This document shows positions 37,073 to 43,407 of a DNA stretch of 64,000 nucleotides, in pieces; within the stretch, counting starts at the first letter, position 1; every line of letters begins with the position of its first letter. Under the pieces are notes generated by a model. It worked only from the letters and a program-made list of their open reading frames with translations, was not told where the DNA came from and did not search any database. The DNA is from Candidatus Melainabacteria bacterium (GTDB taxonomy: Bacteria > Cyanobacteriota > Vampirovibrionia > Obscuribacterales > Obscuribacteraceae). Both the position numbers and the translations under genes were made by a program. The DNA is taken from contig RXJR01000008.1 of NCBI GenBank assembly GCA_003963305.1, positions 124,001-188,000 on the forward strand, given 5' to 3'.

Positions 37073-38008
37073 ATGAAGCGGTCATTAACCCCGAGATCCC
37101 TTGCAATTGTCGCAGTAAGCGTTGGACTGTCGTTTGCAACATTCTTGCAGCCAGCTCACGCTCAGTATTATTTCAACAATCTGCCGTACGCTCTCAGTTC
37201 GTCTTTGATTTATCCGATCGGGCGAATGTTTCTCGGTGGCGGCACCAGCATCTACAACATCGCCAACCCCTACTACTTGACGAATCGGCTGGTTAACGGC
37301 GGCATCAATTCGAGCGGATTTTTCCGGGCACCAGGTTATGGACCGATGCCAATGGGAGTAGCTGGTTACACCGACGAAGAGCCCTTGAATTCGCCTCGCC
37401 AGCGCAATCGACCGTTCAGGTACGGTCAGTGGGGCGTCGACCAGACGGCATACGCAGGCGGTTACATTGCTCCTAATCCAAATGCGGTCGTGCCGCAAGC
37501 AGTGGGTCAACCCGGCGCGCCCGGTATGCCTGCCATCATTCCTCCTCAGCAAGCCAATCAGATGCCACCGACTGCGCCGCAGCGTGGCAAGAAAAAGCAC
37601 TCGAAAAATCAGCAGGTGGCTCAGTATGCACCACAGGCGGTAGCAAGTGCAGCTGCTCCTCAGCTGCCAGCAAGTTCTCCGGCTCCGCTTGCCCAGGGTT
37701 TTGTCACTATGGTGAATACCAAATACGACGGCGATATATCGAAAGCTCTGTTCAGCCCAGAAGGCAGGTCGTGGGCCCACACGGTTGGGCTTGTTGATAA
37801 TAACGACATCTTTAGCGCTGATTTAAGTCAGGAACGCGTTTTAGTGATTGGCAAGATCTTCAAAGATCCGGGACTGGACCCTGTCAGCAAACTGGATGCA
37901 GTCAAGATATTGCTGCGCACCTCGCCTGCTTCCAGCTCAGCAGTTGCAGCGCCTGCGATAGTGCCCGGCGCGCCTCAGACTGCAGCAGCACCAGGCACGA
38001 GCAACTGA
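37073..38008 (+). CDS. Secreted Pro/Gln/Ala-rich protein
   Basis: 311 aa. Signal peptide residues 1-30 with AHA-QY cleavage. The mature part starts with Tyr/Asn/Gly-rich sequence (YYFNNLPYALSSSLIYPIG; GGGTSIYNIANPYYLTNRL), then a long Pro/Gln/Ala linker with a basic RGKKKHSKNQQ patch. Near the end is a short conserved-looking block VNTKYDGDISKALFSPEGRSWAHTVGLVDNNDIF (about 212-245). No known domain. Start ATG follows GGGAG. An exported surface or periplasmic protein. Confidence 0.62.
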   Translation: MKRSLTPRSLAIVAVSVGLSFATFLQPAHAQYYFNNLPYALSSSLIYPIGRMFLGGGTSIYNIANPYYLTNRLVNGGINSSGFFRAPGYGPMPMGVAGYTDEEPLNSPRQRNRPFRYGQWGVDQTAYAGGYIAPNPNAVVPQAVGQPGAPGMPAIIPPQQANQMPPTAPQRGKKKHSKNQQVAQYAPQAVASAAAPQLPASSPAPLAQGFVTMVNTKYDGDISKALFSPEGRSWAHTVGLVDNNDIFSADLSQERVLVIGKIFKDPGLDPVSKLDAVKILLRTSPASSSAVAAPAIVPGAPQTAAAPGTSN

Positions 38009-38143
38009 AGCAATCTGGTTTGAAGCGAATGTTGCGCTTTCCCCATGCTCGTTATCGAGTGTGACGAAGCTGTGTTGTCATGCAGATTTCGGCTCGGCCG
38101 GTTCGGTATATTTAGGCTCCCCGGATGTCATAAAGGAGTGCTC

Positions 38144-38863
38144 ATGAATACTGAGTCTTTTACGCAAGAATTGAACGCGCGAATCGCAAAGTACGATTTG
38201 CTCAGCCATCCCTTTTATAAATCTTGGAGCATGGGTGCACTCAAGAAAGATGAGATTAGAGAGTACGCCTGCGATTACTATCATCATGTAGCCGAATTTC
38301 CCAACTATCTCGATACGCTGCAAAAGCGCTTGCCTGAAGGGGAATTGCGTAATGTAGTTCTTGAAAATAAGGGTGACGAAGAAGGTGTTCAGTCTCGTGA
38401 CGGACGTTCTCATGCTGAAATCTGGCTTGATTTTGCTCAGGGAATGGGCGCCAGTGCCGAAGATATCGTAGATCATGAGCCGATTGAAGAAATTGAACAA
38501 CTGATAGCCACCTTCAAAGATGTTGTTGCAAACGGCTCCACCGCTGAAGCACTGGCTGCCCTCTATGCCTACGAATCACAAGTGCCGCGCGTGGCCACTG
38601 AAAAAGAGCGCGGTCTGAAAGATCACTATGGTGCTGATGATAAGACCAGCTACTACTTTACTTTGCACAAATCGTTCGATGTTTTGCACGCGAGAACATG
38701 GCTCGAACAGATTGCCCGTGAAGTTGGCACCGACGAGGCTGTGCAGCAAGCGGCTCTAAATGCTGCTGAAAGAGCTGCAAAATCGCTCTGGAACGCTCTT
38801 GATGGCGTTGAGCGCGAGCGCCTCTCGATCGCAAACAGCGGCACAAGCGTTTGTTGCCACTAG
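38144..38863 (+). CDS. CADD-family self-sacrificing pABA synthase
   Basis: 239 aa, ATG 38144 behind AAAGGAG. Helical TENA/heme-oxygenase-like di-metal fold. Landmarks resemble chlamydial CADD: Tyr25 in SHPFYKSW, His90, Glu144 (YAYESQ), Lys154 ten residues later (ATEKERG) and His175-x3-Asp179-x2-His182. In Chlamydia trachomatis the equivalent residues (Tyr27, Glu142, Lys152, His174, Asp178, His181) bind metal or supply the ring for p-aminobenzoate, made from the protein's own tyrosine. It is 14 bases upstream of folP and heads a folate operon. This context strongly supports pABA supply without pabA/pabB/pabC. Whether it is active is inference. Confidence 0.85.
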   Translation: MNTESFTQELNARIAKYDLLSHPFYKSWSMGALKKDEIREYACDYYHHVAEFPNYLDTLQKRLPEGELRNVVLENKGDEEGVQSRDGRSHAEIWLDFAQGMGASAEDIVDHEPIEEIEQLIATFKDVVANGSTAEALAALYAYESQVPRVATEKERGLKDHYGADDKTSYYFTLHKSFDVLHARTWLEQIAREVGTDEAVQQAALNAAERAAKSLWNALDGVERERLSIANSGTSVCCH

Positions 38864-38877
38864 ATAGATGAGGGCAG

Positions 38878-39756
38878 ATGCTAGGCTTGAAACCCGTCGA
38901 TAGTGATCTGTCGAGACGCCTGCATCGCGGCGCTCTGCGTGTGCGAGATTTCTCTCACTCGTGGGGATCTCGCACCCTGATTATGGGAATTGTTAACGTC
39001 ACCCCGGACTCCTTCTCTGGAGACGGGGTGCTTAACTGTGCGGATGCAGTGGCTAAAGCCTCTCTGCAGGCTGATTCTGGCGCCGACATCATCGATATTG
39101 GTGGGCAGTCCACACGCCCGGGGCATGAACCGGTGTCAATAGACGAAGAGTTGAAGCGTGTTTTGCCTGTACTTTCTCAGTTCAGGCAGCAGATGCCCGC
39201 CGCTCTTGTTTCTCTCGACACCACTAAACCAGAAGTTCTGCAGCAGGCTCTGGAGGTGGATTTACTTAATTCCATCTGGGGAATCAGCGATCAGCTGCTT
39301 GCCATAGCTGTCGAGCGTGCACTGCCTGTGGTGGTAATGCACAATAAGGAGCGTCCGCAATACTCTTCCAGTGTAGTTGATGAAGTCTTGCGTTATCTGG
39401 ATAATCAGGCGAGAAAGGCAGTTAGAGCCGGTCTCAAGCACGAGCATGTTATTCTCGACCCGGGCATCGGATTCGGTAAGACGGCAGAGCACAATTTGCA
39501 AGTTTTGAACCAGTTGCATCGCTTGACTGCGCTGGGCTTTCCTACCCTGATAGGCACATCCCGCAAGTCATTTTTAGGTAAATTGACCGGCAAAAATGTG
39601 GACCAACGCCTGGCTGGTTCGCTTGCTACGGTATCGCTGGCGGTGGCGGCAGGAATAGATATTGTGCGTGTTCATGATGTCGCGCAAACCAAAGAAGCTC
39701 TAGCTGTCAGTGACGCCATAATTCGCCAGACACGCCCGTCTGGCTGGGAGAGCTGA
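38878..39756 (+). CDS. folP: Dihydropteroate synthase
   Basis: 292 aa. Joins pABA with dihydropterin pyrophosphate to make dihydropteroate. Family motifs: MGIVNVTPDSFSGDG, IDIGGQSTRPG, VSLDTTKPEV, VILDPGIGFGK and IGTSRKSFLG. The usual His/Asn loop is VVMHNKERPQ. Start ATG 38878 has GAGGG before it. The stop overlaps the folB start as TGATG. Second gene of the CADD-folP-folB-folK operon; the target of sulfonamides. Confidence 0.95.
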   Translation: MLGLKPVDSDLSRRLHRGALRVRDFSHSWGSRTLIMGIVNVTPDSFSGDGVLNCADAVAKASLQADSGADIIDIGGQSTRPGHEPVSIDEELKRVLPVLSQFRQQMPAALVSLDTTKPEVLQQALEVDLLNSIWGISDQLLAIAVERALPVVVMHNKERPQYSSSVVDEVLRYLDNQARKAVRAGLKHEHVILDPGIGFGKTAEHNLQVLNQLHRLTALGFPTLIGTSRKSFLGKLTGKNVDQRLAGSLATVSLAVAAGIDIVRVHDVAQTKEALAVSDAIIRQTRPSGWES

Positions 39757-40136
39757 TGTCTGAAACGGTGGACCGATCTTTGCCTGTAGATGTTATTCGC
39801 ATTGATAAGATTGTCGCTCGCGGAAAACATGGCGTGACGGCGGCCGAGCGCGAGCAAGAATTGCCGCTGGAGCTTTCCGTGGAACTGCTCGTTGATCTCT
39901 CTAGAGCGGCTCAGACAGACAACATTGACGACACGATCAATTATTCGACTTTGAATCAAGCGATCGTGTCGGTTGTGCAAACCAGATCCCGGCACCTGAT
40001 TGAAAAGTTGGCAGAAGACGTACTGGAAGTGATTTTTCAGGACCAGCGTGTCAGGCAGGCGACTGTTCGTATCGCCAAGCCTGAAAGATTGAACGGAGCT
40101 ACTCCCAGCGTTACGCTGGTACGCAGGAACGAATAA
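39756..40136 (+). CDS. folB: Dihydroneopterin aldolase
   Basis: 126 aa. Converts 7,8-dihydroneopterin to 6-hydroxymethyl-dihydropterin, feeding folK. Motifs: IDKIVARGKHGVTAAEREQ, DDTINYSTL, RSRHLIEKLAEDV and VRIAKPERLNG. Start codon overlaps the folP stop by one base (TGATG), so translation is coupled. Length is normal. Confidence 0.93.
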   Translation: MSETVDRSLPVDVIRIDKIVARGKHGVTAAEREQELPLELSVELLVDLSRAAQTDNIDDTINYSTLNQAIVSVVQTRSRHLIEKLAEDVLEVIFQDQRVRQATVRIAKPERLNGATPSVTLVRRNE

Positions 40137-40138
40137 GC

Positions 40139-40606
40139 ATGGTCTATGCATATATTGGTCTCGGGTCTAACCTGGGAGATACGGCTCAGAACTTGCGCAA
40201 TGCTCTGCGCGAAGTAGAGGCTTTTGGTCAGGTTTATGCCAAGTCGCGCCTCTATCATTCCAAGCCGTGGGGGGTCACCGATCAGCCGGACTTTTGTAAT
40301 GCAGTTATTCAGCTTGAAACGTCACTTTCGCCTCAGGAATTGTTGAAAGGCTTGAAGGACCTGGAGAAGCGCATGGGGCGTGAGGAATCGCGGCGCTGGG
40401 GCCCTCGCTTAATAGACCTGGACATTCTCACTTATGGTGAAGAAGTAGTGAGAGATGAAAATTTGACTGTGCCGCATCTGCACATGAACGAGCGAGCGTT
40501 TGTCTTGATGCCGCTTTGTGATATCGACCATAACTACAAGGACGCCCTTATGGCGCTTCCGGTTGAATCAAGAGAGGAAGTGCAGTTGACCGGTCTGACC
40601 TGGTAG
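40139..40606 (+). CDS. folK: HPPK, dihydropterin pyrophosphokinase
   Basis: 155 aa. Transfers pyrophosphate from ATP to 6-hydroxymethyl-dihydropterin, making the folP substrate. Motifs: IGLGSNLGDTAQNL, QPDFCNAVIQLET and RWGPRLIDLDILTYG (conserved DxDIL). ATG 40139 is two bases after the folB stop. Ends the folate operon; GTP cyclohydrolase (folE) is not in the window. Confidence 0.95.
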   Translation: MVYAYIGLGSNLGDTAQNLRNALREVEAFGQVYAKSRLYHSKPWGVTDQPDFCNAVIQLETSLSPQELLKGLKDLEKRMGREESRRWGPRLIDLDILTYGEEVVRDENLTVPHLHMNERAFVLMPLCDIDHNYKDALMALPVESREEVQLTGLTW

Positions 40607-41951: not shown

Positions 41952-42590
41952 ATGCACGATCACAGCGATTCAGTCACGCCCATTGTTGTTGTCCTCGGTG
42001 GAGGCATGAGCAACGATGGCCGCGGCGGACCAGCAACAATTTTACGAGCCCGCAAGGCCGTCAAGTTGGCGAAAGCCAACCCCACCTGGACCTTCATTCT
42101 CTCGGGAGATGGACGTGTTGACCCTGCCTCGTCAGACTTGACCGAGGCTCAGTTCATGGCGCGCATCCTCGTTGAGGCTGGAGTTGACGGTTCTCGACTG
42201 CTGCTCGAAGACGAGTCTCGCGACACCATCGGCAATGCTGTTCTGGTGGCGGCTCGTTATCTCAGGCACCTGCAGCCGCGGACCCTGTACGTCGTCACCT
42301 CGCCCTTCCACTCGACTCGCGCCCTGCTGCTCTTCCGCGGCGTGCTCGGTCCTGCCTGGGACGTGCAGGTGGCAGCATCATCTCCGGCGCGCGGCGATGC
42401 AACGCGTCGAGCCAACGAGCCTGGTGGCATCGACTGGACAAGGCGCTTCTTCGCCGGCATCACGCCTGGCGACCTCAAGGCTTGCATCCGCAAGCTGATC
42501 GCTGACCGTCCTGGCTATGCCACCAGCCGCACACTGCAATTTGACGACAACCCCGATGGCAGTGATACCACGCTCGGTACCGCTGCCTGA
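41952..42590 (+). CDS. DUF218/YdcF-like protein
   Basis: 212 aa of the DUF218 (SanA/ElyC/YdcF) fold. Landmarks: VVVLGGGMSNDG, ILSGDGRVDP, EAQFMARILVEAGVDGSRLLLEDESRDTIGNA and YVVTSPFHSTRALLLF. The family is a Rossmann-like enzyme-related fold linked to envelope or vancomycin resistance in some members; YdcF binds S-adenosylmethionine in vitro. No membrane segment here, so it is the cytosolic type. Start ATG 41952 follows TAGGAG. First of three rightward GC-rich genes. Confidence 0.82.
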   Translation: MHDHSDSVTPIVVVLGGGMSNDGRGGPATILRARKAVKLAKANPTWTFILSGDGRVDPASSDLTEAQFMARILVEAGVDGSRLLLEDESRDTIGNAVLVAARYLRHLQPRTLYVVTSPFHSTRALLLFRGVLGPAWDVQVAASSPARGDATRRANEPGGIDWTRRFFAGITPGDLKACIRKLIADRPGYATSRTLQFDDNPDGSDTTLGTAA

Positions 42591-42618
42591 TCGCACAGCG
42601 CCGAAGGAGGCCTATGTC

Positions 42619-43407
42619 ATGCAAACTTCAAACCGCTCAGGCGGATTCTTTCTGATTGGCGGCAAGTCCAAGACTTGTTTCGCCGTTTTTCTGAAACTGG
42701 CTGGCGGTTCTGACGCGAAGATCGTCGTCATTCCCCACGCCAGCAGCGTTCCGTCCGAAGCCGCTGCCGACGTGGTCGAGCAGTTCGCTTTGCTCGGTGC
42801 GCGCAATGTCACCGTGCTCGAGCCGCCGACACTGTTTCGAGCACGCGTTGCTTCTTTCCTCTGGAAGCTGGGTGCTCGCTGGCTGAGTCGGTTCGTCTCA
42901 GACACGGTCATTCCCAGCGGGACTGACGCCGTGTATATCTCCGGTGGCGATCAGGACCAGCTCGTTGAGAAGCTCGGTGCCGGTGGCATCGCCACTCTCC
43001 GTGCATTCAGTCGCGCCGGTGGGTTGGTCTCGGGTACCTCGGCTGGCGCGGCCTGCATGGGGAACTACATGATCACAGGAGGCATGTCAGACGGAGCAAT
43101 CCGTGCCGGCTCGCTCCGAACCGGGCGCGGACTGGGGCTGACTGGGCGCATTCTTTTCGACACGCACATGAAGCGCAACCGCTTCAACCGCCCCATCGTC
43201 GCACTGGCCACTCTCGACATGGACGCTGCTTTCGGCCTTGATGAAGACACCGGCGTCCACATCACGAACGGAACGGCCAGTGTGCACGGTGTCGGCAAGG
43301 TCTGGTACTACCGGCGCGGCGCCGATTTCGGCGTCGATTTCTCGGCTGGTTCCGCGCACGGTGTGAACGTCGAAGTTCTCACCGCAGGTGGTGTCATTGC
43401 CATCTGA
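42619..43407 (+). CDS. Cyanophycinase-like S51 peptidase
   Basis: 262 aa. Class I glutamine amidotransferase-like fold with the serine nucleophile elbow GTSAGAA (Ser141), the early FFLIGGKSK and VVIPHASS, VYISGGDQDQLVEKL and FDTHMKRNRFNRP, all in the order of cyanophycinase. Cyanophycinase cleaves the Asp-Arg polymer cyanophycin, a nitrogen reserve, into beta-Asp-Arg dipeptides; the family also has other Ser peptidases. ATG 42619 follows AAGGAGG. It starts 28 bases after the DUF218 stop. No cyanophycin synthetase is in the window, so substrate is inferred. Confidence 0.82.
   Translation: MQTSNRSGGFFLIGGKSKTCFAVFLKLAGGSDAKIVVIPHASSVPSEAAADVVEQFALLGARNVTVLEPPTLFRARVASFLWKLGARWLSRFVSDTVIPSGTDAVYISGGDQDQLVEKLGAGGIATLRAFSRAGGLVSGTSAGAACMGNYMITGGMSDGAIRAGSLRTGRGLGLTGRILFDTHMKRNRFNRPIVALATLDMDAAFGLDEDTGVHITNGTASVHGVGKVWYYRRGADFGVDFSAGSAHGVNVEVLTAGGVIAI

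Follow-up and report, generated by a model that had tools for sequence, protein, structure and literature searches.

A predicted self-sacrificing p-aminobenzoate synthase of the CADD family at the head of a folP-folB-folK cluster in a melainabacterium

We have found that a 64-kb stretch of the genome of a melainabacterium (hereafter the window, meaning the whole stretch that was analyzed) carries a folP cluster whose first gene codes for a protein of the CADD family. With a probability of about 0.9, this protein would be a heme-oxygenase-like dimetal enzyme of the CADD/PabS type, which is its own substrate and supplies p-aminobenzoate (pABA) to the co-encoded FolP, allowing the synthesis of folate without chorismate-derived pABA. 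This self-sacrificing route is proposed because the usual pab genes were not found in the host genome. The features involved are the following:

38133..38138, + strand: AAGGAG, ribosome-binding site located 5 nt upstream of the start codon of CADD (from the sequence itself)
38144..38863, + strand: predicted self-sacrificing p-aminobenzoate synthase of the CADD family (pabS-like), 239 aa (TIGR04305, match to CADD in the PDB, residues, AlphaFold model)
38878..39756, + strand: folP, dihydropteroate synthase, the pABA user, 292 aa (TIGR01496, 281.5 bits, cut-off 162.6)
39756..40136, + strand: folB, dihydroneopterin aldolase, 126 aa (TIGR00525, 80.7 bits, cut-off 72.15)
40139..40606, + strand: folK, hydroxymethyldihydropteridine diphosphokinase, 155 aa (TIGR01498, 146.6 bits, cut-off 54.1)

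The four genes form a tight cluster on the + strand in which CADD is the first, with a gap of 14 nt between CADD and folP, an overlap of 1 nt between folP and folB and a gap of 2 nt between folB and folK. The coordinates, order and gaps given in a preliminary description of this DNA coincide exactly with the called ORFs. Its term "complete operon" holds for folP-folB-folK and not for the whole pathway, since folE, DHFR and two folC genes are located on other contigs. An in-frame ATG at 38045, that would provide a longer CADD, was rejected; 38144 is the likely start because it is preceded by the Shine-Dalgarno motif AAGGAG and the relatives align from there. No Rfam family was matched in the 64-kb window, and a scan for promoters and terminators gave signals at chance level. 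The gene order is conserved in a palsa-soil MAG assigned to Candidatus Melainabacteria (G002, locus L098). Directly upstream of CADD (37073-38008) there is a gene for a 311-aa protein without Pfam match, 74% conserved in the same MAG, and its C-terminal part is also found upstream of CADD in another genome of the family (G005). Further downstream, past the folate cluster and a DUF218 gene, positions 42517-43407 encode a member of the Peptidase S51 family, which by this family would be cyanophycinase-like.

The product of the first gene scored 205.7 bits (cut-off 200, E 6e-61) with TIGR04305, a model named "CADD family putative folate metabolism protein". Among the solved structures of the PDB, phmmer placed closest to it Chlamydia trachomatis CADD (E 1e-38) together with 8va9 and 9pj4, entries that bear the name "4-aminobenzoate synthase". 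The match to PF03070 (TENA_THI-4/PQQC, 62.5 bits, cut-off 22) is at the superfamily level. The printed alignment with CADD gave the equivalences (window=CADD) Y25=Y27, Y41=Y43, Y45=Y47, E79=E81, H90=H88, W94=W92, Y143=Y141, E144=E142, K154=K152, Y171=Y170, H175=H174, D179=D178 and H182=H181. The preliminary description had singled out Tyr25, Glu144, Lys154, His175, Asp179 and His182 as the residues shared with CADD, and the alignment upholds all of these equivalences. Glu79 and His90, two further metal ligands that it did not name, are present too, and aligning the protein with CADD and with the Nitrosomonas-type pABA synthase, a check that it had proposed, showed all the catalytic residues to be conserved.

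A predicted 3-His/3-carboxylate dimetal site (E79, H90, E144, H175, D179 and H182) is thus complete in the window protein, as it is in 77/77 aligned homologues, a set formed by the six melainabacterial sequences and their public duplicates, the acidobacterial ones and 9pj4. The sacrificial pair is also present, with Tyr25 (77/77) and Lys154 (76/77) as the probable donors, by homology, of the carbon and the amine respectively. The aromatic residues Y41, Y45 and W94 correspond to the essential or radical-path residues Y41, Y45 and W99 of the Nitrosomonas europaea enzyme NePabS, in which Tyr25, Tyr41 and Lys159 are essential by mutation and Tyr45 and Trp99 have been implicated (PMC11965152). Tyr25 and Lys154 are discriminating residues, because the weaker heme-oxygenase-like homologues aligned from the same surveys, including PqqC-like ones, lack both.

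Model building agrees with this assignment. The AlphaFold2 model of the window protein, for which 41 window and locus sequences were the input, had a mean pLDDT of 95.8 and, when compared by Foldseek and VIA-align, superposed on C. trachomatis CADD (1rcw) with a Z of 30.3 and an rmsd of 1.3 Å over 213 residues at 36% identity. CADD ranked first, followed by PqqC (Z 27.3, 2.9 Å), HrmI, UndA, FlcD and BesC. The predicted structure is, as in CADD, a heme-oxygenase-like helix bundle.

The host is a melainabacterium with a genome of 7.48 Mb in 44 contigs, an estimated completeness of 95% and 4.7% contamination. There is a single chorismate-binding enzyme in this genome, TrpE, whose gene heads a trpEGDCFBA series on contig C24 (the trp names beyond trpE and trpG were read from translations). 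That it could act as PabB was rejected given this position and its best family, trpE_most (484.7 bits, slightly below the cut-off of 517.7). It carries an IAGT motif, which we take to be of the TrpE type. A pabB, i.e., a second Chorismate_bind gene, was not found in the draft genome, nor was a pabC; of the three class-IV aminotransferases, two were IlvE and the third was D-amino-acid-transaminase-like, and no score came near the pabC cut-off. This is the outcome of the genome-wide search for pab genes that had been suggested before. All the other folate steps checked are present, so the pABA branch is represented by CADD alone, with the caveat that the absence of one gene from a draft genome is no proof. 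A second CADD-like gene on contig C30 (L201:982-1695, 29.6 bits) was rejected as a pABA synthase since visual inspection revealed neither the HPFY nor the ESQ...K motif. This weak CADD-like protein also appears in two genomes of the same genus.

The association between CADD and folP is apparent all over the host family. Among 36 genomes (G000-G035), with CADD called above 160 bits, folP was detected in nine and CADD in six, and none contained a second chorismate-binding enzyme (0/36). FolP genes were present in 6/6 genomes with CADD vs 3/30 without it (counts 6/0/3/27, Fisher p = 4e-5), a p-value that is only a guide because the genomes are related and it overstates their independence; restricting the test to genomes with a completeness of 85% or more gave 5e-4. 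CADD adjoins folP in all six, located just upstream and in the same direction in five of them. In the sixth (G004, L078:9675-13768) CADD converges on a folK-folP pair, with a 3'-end overlap of ~50 nt between CADD and folK; what seem to be pyrC and pyrB genes lie upstream of this pair. The family CADDs are 47-85% identical and keep all the active-site residues. Three genomes (G006, G015 and G031; loci L082, L083 and L084) had a folP-folK pair but lacked both CADD and a second chorismate-binding enzyme, indicating that folP can occur in the family without a visible source of pABA. In G006 and G015 the chorismate-binding gene again adjoins a trpG-like gene. In the tree, the nine folP genes of the family form one clade (100/100) in which those from genomes with and without CADD are mixed. 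Taken with the aligned catalytic residues and the failure to find pabB or pabC, the presence of folP in every genome with CADD (6/6) supports the pab-independent folate route that had been put forward from the window.

Two other explanations of these data have to be weighed. The protein could be a related heme-oxygenase-like enzyme such as PqqC, BesC, TenA or another member of the HDO group, acting on a different substrate and merely located near folate genes. The fold is indeed the same, PqqC reaches a Z of 27, and there are weak sequence matches to the BesC and PqqC models; these matches, of 62 bits for BesC and 46 bits for PqqC, stay far under the respective cut-offs of 500 and 240, whereas that of TIGR04305 is passed. 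CADD is nearer both in rmsd and in identity, the sacrificial Tyr and Lys that PqqC-like and other weak homologues lack are present, and CADD co-occurs with folP, all of which makes this explanation very unlikely. It is also hardly probable that we are dealing with a decayed or redundant CADD that has another role, the pABA coming from outside or from an unrecognized route. Scavenging or unrecognized routes may exist, as suggested by the three family members that keep folP-folK without CADD or pabB and by the many acidobacterial genomes with one chorismate-binding enzyme and no CADD. However, the frame is open in the window, the active-site residues have been maintained over the divergence seen within the family, and CADD heads the folP cluster and was accompanied by folP in all six genomes of the family that have it.

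If the protein is a self-sacrificing pABA synthase, O2 would react at the dimetal site, and the oxidizing equivalent would move through the conserved Tyr and Trp residues to Tyr25, the side chain of which would be cut off and oxidized to the benzoate. Lys154 would supply the amine, with one pABA produced per protein molecule, and FolP would then join this pABA to the pterin provided by FolE, FolB and FolK.

The enzyme family, its chemistry and the link with folate genes were already known (PMC1971073, PMC11965152, PMC13108848). The window protein resembles C. trachomatis CADD (CT610, 1rcw/8va9) in its predicted fold, identity, ligands, sacrificial Tyr and Lys and a Tyr/Tyr pair (see below), and both genes have folate genes as neighbors (PMC1971073). 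They differ in gene order, in a loop before His90 that is 4 residues longer in the window protein, and in the host, which is here non-chlamydial, has a large 7.5 Mb genome and possesses folE, absent from Chlamydia (PMC1971073). NePabS (NE1434) shares the sacrificial and essential residues (PMC11965152) but its gene adjoins glyA and not folP; the window protein is 34% identical to 9pj4, which is of the same type, and the Nitrosomonas type has Phe at both selectivity positions. The PabA-PabB-PabC route likewise produces pABA for FolP, with the difference that pabB and pabC were not found in the window genome. The novelty lies in the host lineage, in the gene arrangement CADD-folP-folB-folK, in the coupling with folP across the family and in the metal-type prediction; our search of open-access papers retrieved nothing relevant on melainabacterial or acidobacterial CADD. 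Folate synthesis independent of pab genes would thereby reach a lineage outside the chlamydiae that has CADD coupled to folP, a natural replacement of pabB.

Regarding the metal, changing F148 and F177 of NePabS to Tyr, as in CADD, switches the enzyme from Fe/Fe to Mn/Fe, while F148Y alone accepts both metal types; the authors suggested that the use of Mn/Fe reflects iron restriction in the host (PMC11965152). The equivalent pair in the window protein, Tyr143/Tyr171, is that of CADD (Tyr141/Tyr170), and for this reason the cofactor that we predict is the Mn/Fe of Chlamydia, not the Fe/Fe of Nitrosomonas. A cofactor of iron alone in an otherwise identical enzyme retains an appreciable probability, rather below one half: most of the studied HDO enzymes use only iron, and according to a 2026 review CADD of C. 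trachomatis is the only known Fe/Mn member and the primary ligands do not reveal the choice of metal (PMC13108848). Against Fe/Fe stand the match of both tyrosines and the effect of the Phe to Tyr swap on the Nitrosomonas enzyme (PMC11965152). At the two selectivity positions Tyr was found in 75 and 76, respectively, of the 77 aligned sequences, nearly all from soil MAGs, and a Tyr/Phe pair in 11/11 members from oxygenic cyanobacteria (L182-L192), in a sample with a bias toward relatives of the window protein and under a metal rule that rests on two characterized enzymes. If the Tyr/Tyr rule is true, Mn/Fe or mixed use would be common in free-living bacteria. We advance, with slightly less than even confidence, that the Mn/Fe type of PabS may be the rule in large free-living soil Melainabacteria and Acidobacteria, so that Mn/Fe use would not be driven by host iron restriction, and that oxygenic cyanobacteria may represent a natural Tyr/Phe intermediate similar to the mixed-metal F148Y variant. 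It is the Tyr/Tyr pair of nearly all 77 homologues that challenges the published idea. The Mn/Fe cofactor as a pathogen adaptation becomes in this way testable, with the Tyr/Tyr of soil, the Phe/Phe of Nitrosomonas and the Tyr/Phe of cyanobacteria as natural variants.

When 84,980 species genomes were scanned, at least 500 homologous stretches were retrieved, and the best 80 of these were almost all acidobacterial. Their identities to the window protein, of up to 56%, equal or exceed those of the other genera of the host family (47-49%). In the tree, the sampling of which was centered on the window protein and in which some branches are long, the six melainabacterial CADDs formed a group (97/66) that joined a single acidobacterial sequence (99/89) and was nested within the Acidobacteria. 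The simplest reading of these sequence relationships is a transfer of CADD from Acidobacteria. Photosynthetic cyanobacteria, of the same phylum, have strong TIGR04305 members (L182-L192, 282-312 bits) with the sacrificial residues; since these are only 33-37% identical to the window protein, vs up to 56% for the acidobacterial ones, the window gene is not simply the inherited copy of the phylum, and direct vertical descent from a cyanobacterial copy was rejected.

The replacement of pabB seems to be looser in Acidobacteria. Ten acidobacterial genomes with CADD had at most one chorismate-binding enzyme each, but in a sample of 121 genomes of the acidobacterial class a second one was found in 3/24 with a strong CADD vs 33/97 without CADD (p = 0.047). 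Because of the former three, replacement is not strict in this class, and strict mutual exclusion of CADD and pabB was rejected in favor of a weak trend; many genomes of the class have one chorismate-binding enzyme and no CADD. The acidobacterial TIGR04305 proteins close to that of the window (54-56% identity, for example L109, L118 and L141) have the same residues, and the sequenced genomes mostly one chorismate-binding enzyme. The loci differ from the window in that folP was beside CADD in none of the acidobacterial ones among the best 80 of at least 500, in the flanks examined. In just two of them, L130 and L164, both on an early branch, folK is located directly upstream of CADD, a folate link of CADD within the Acidobacteria.
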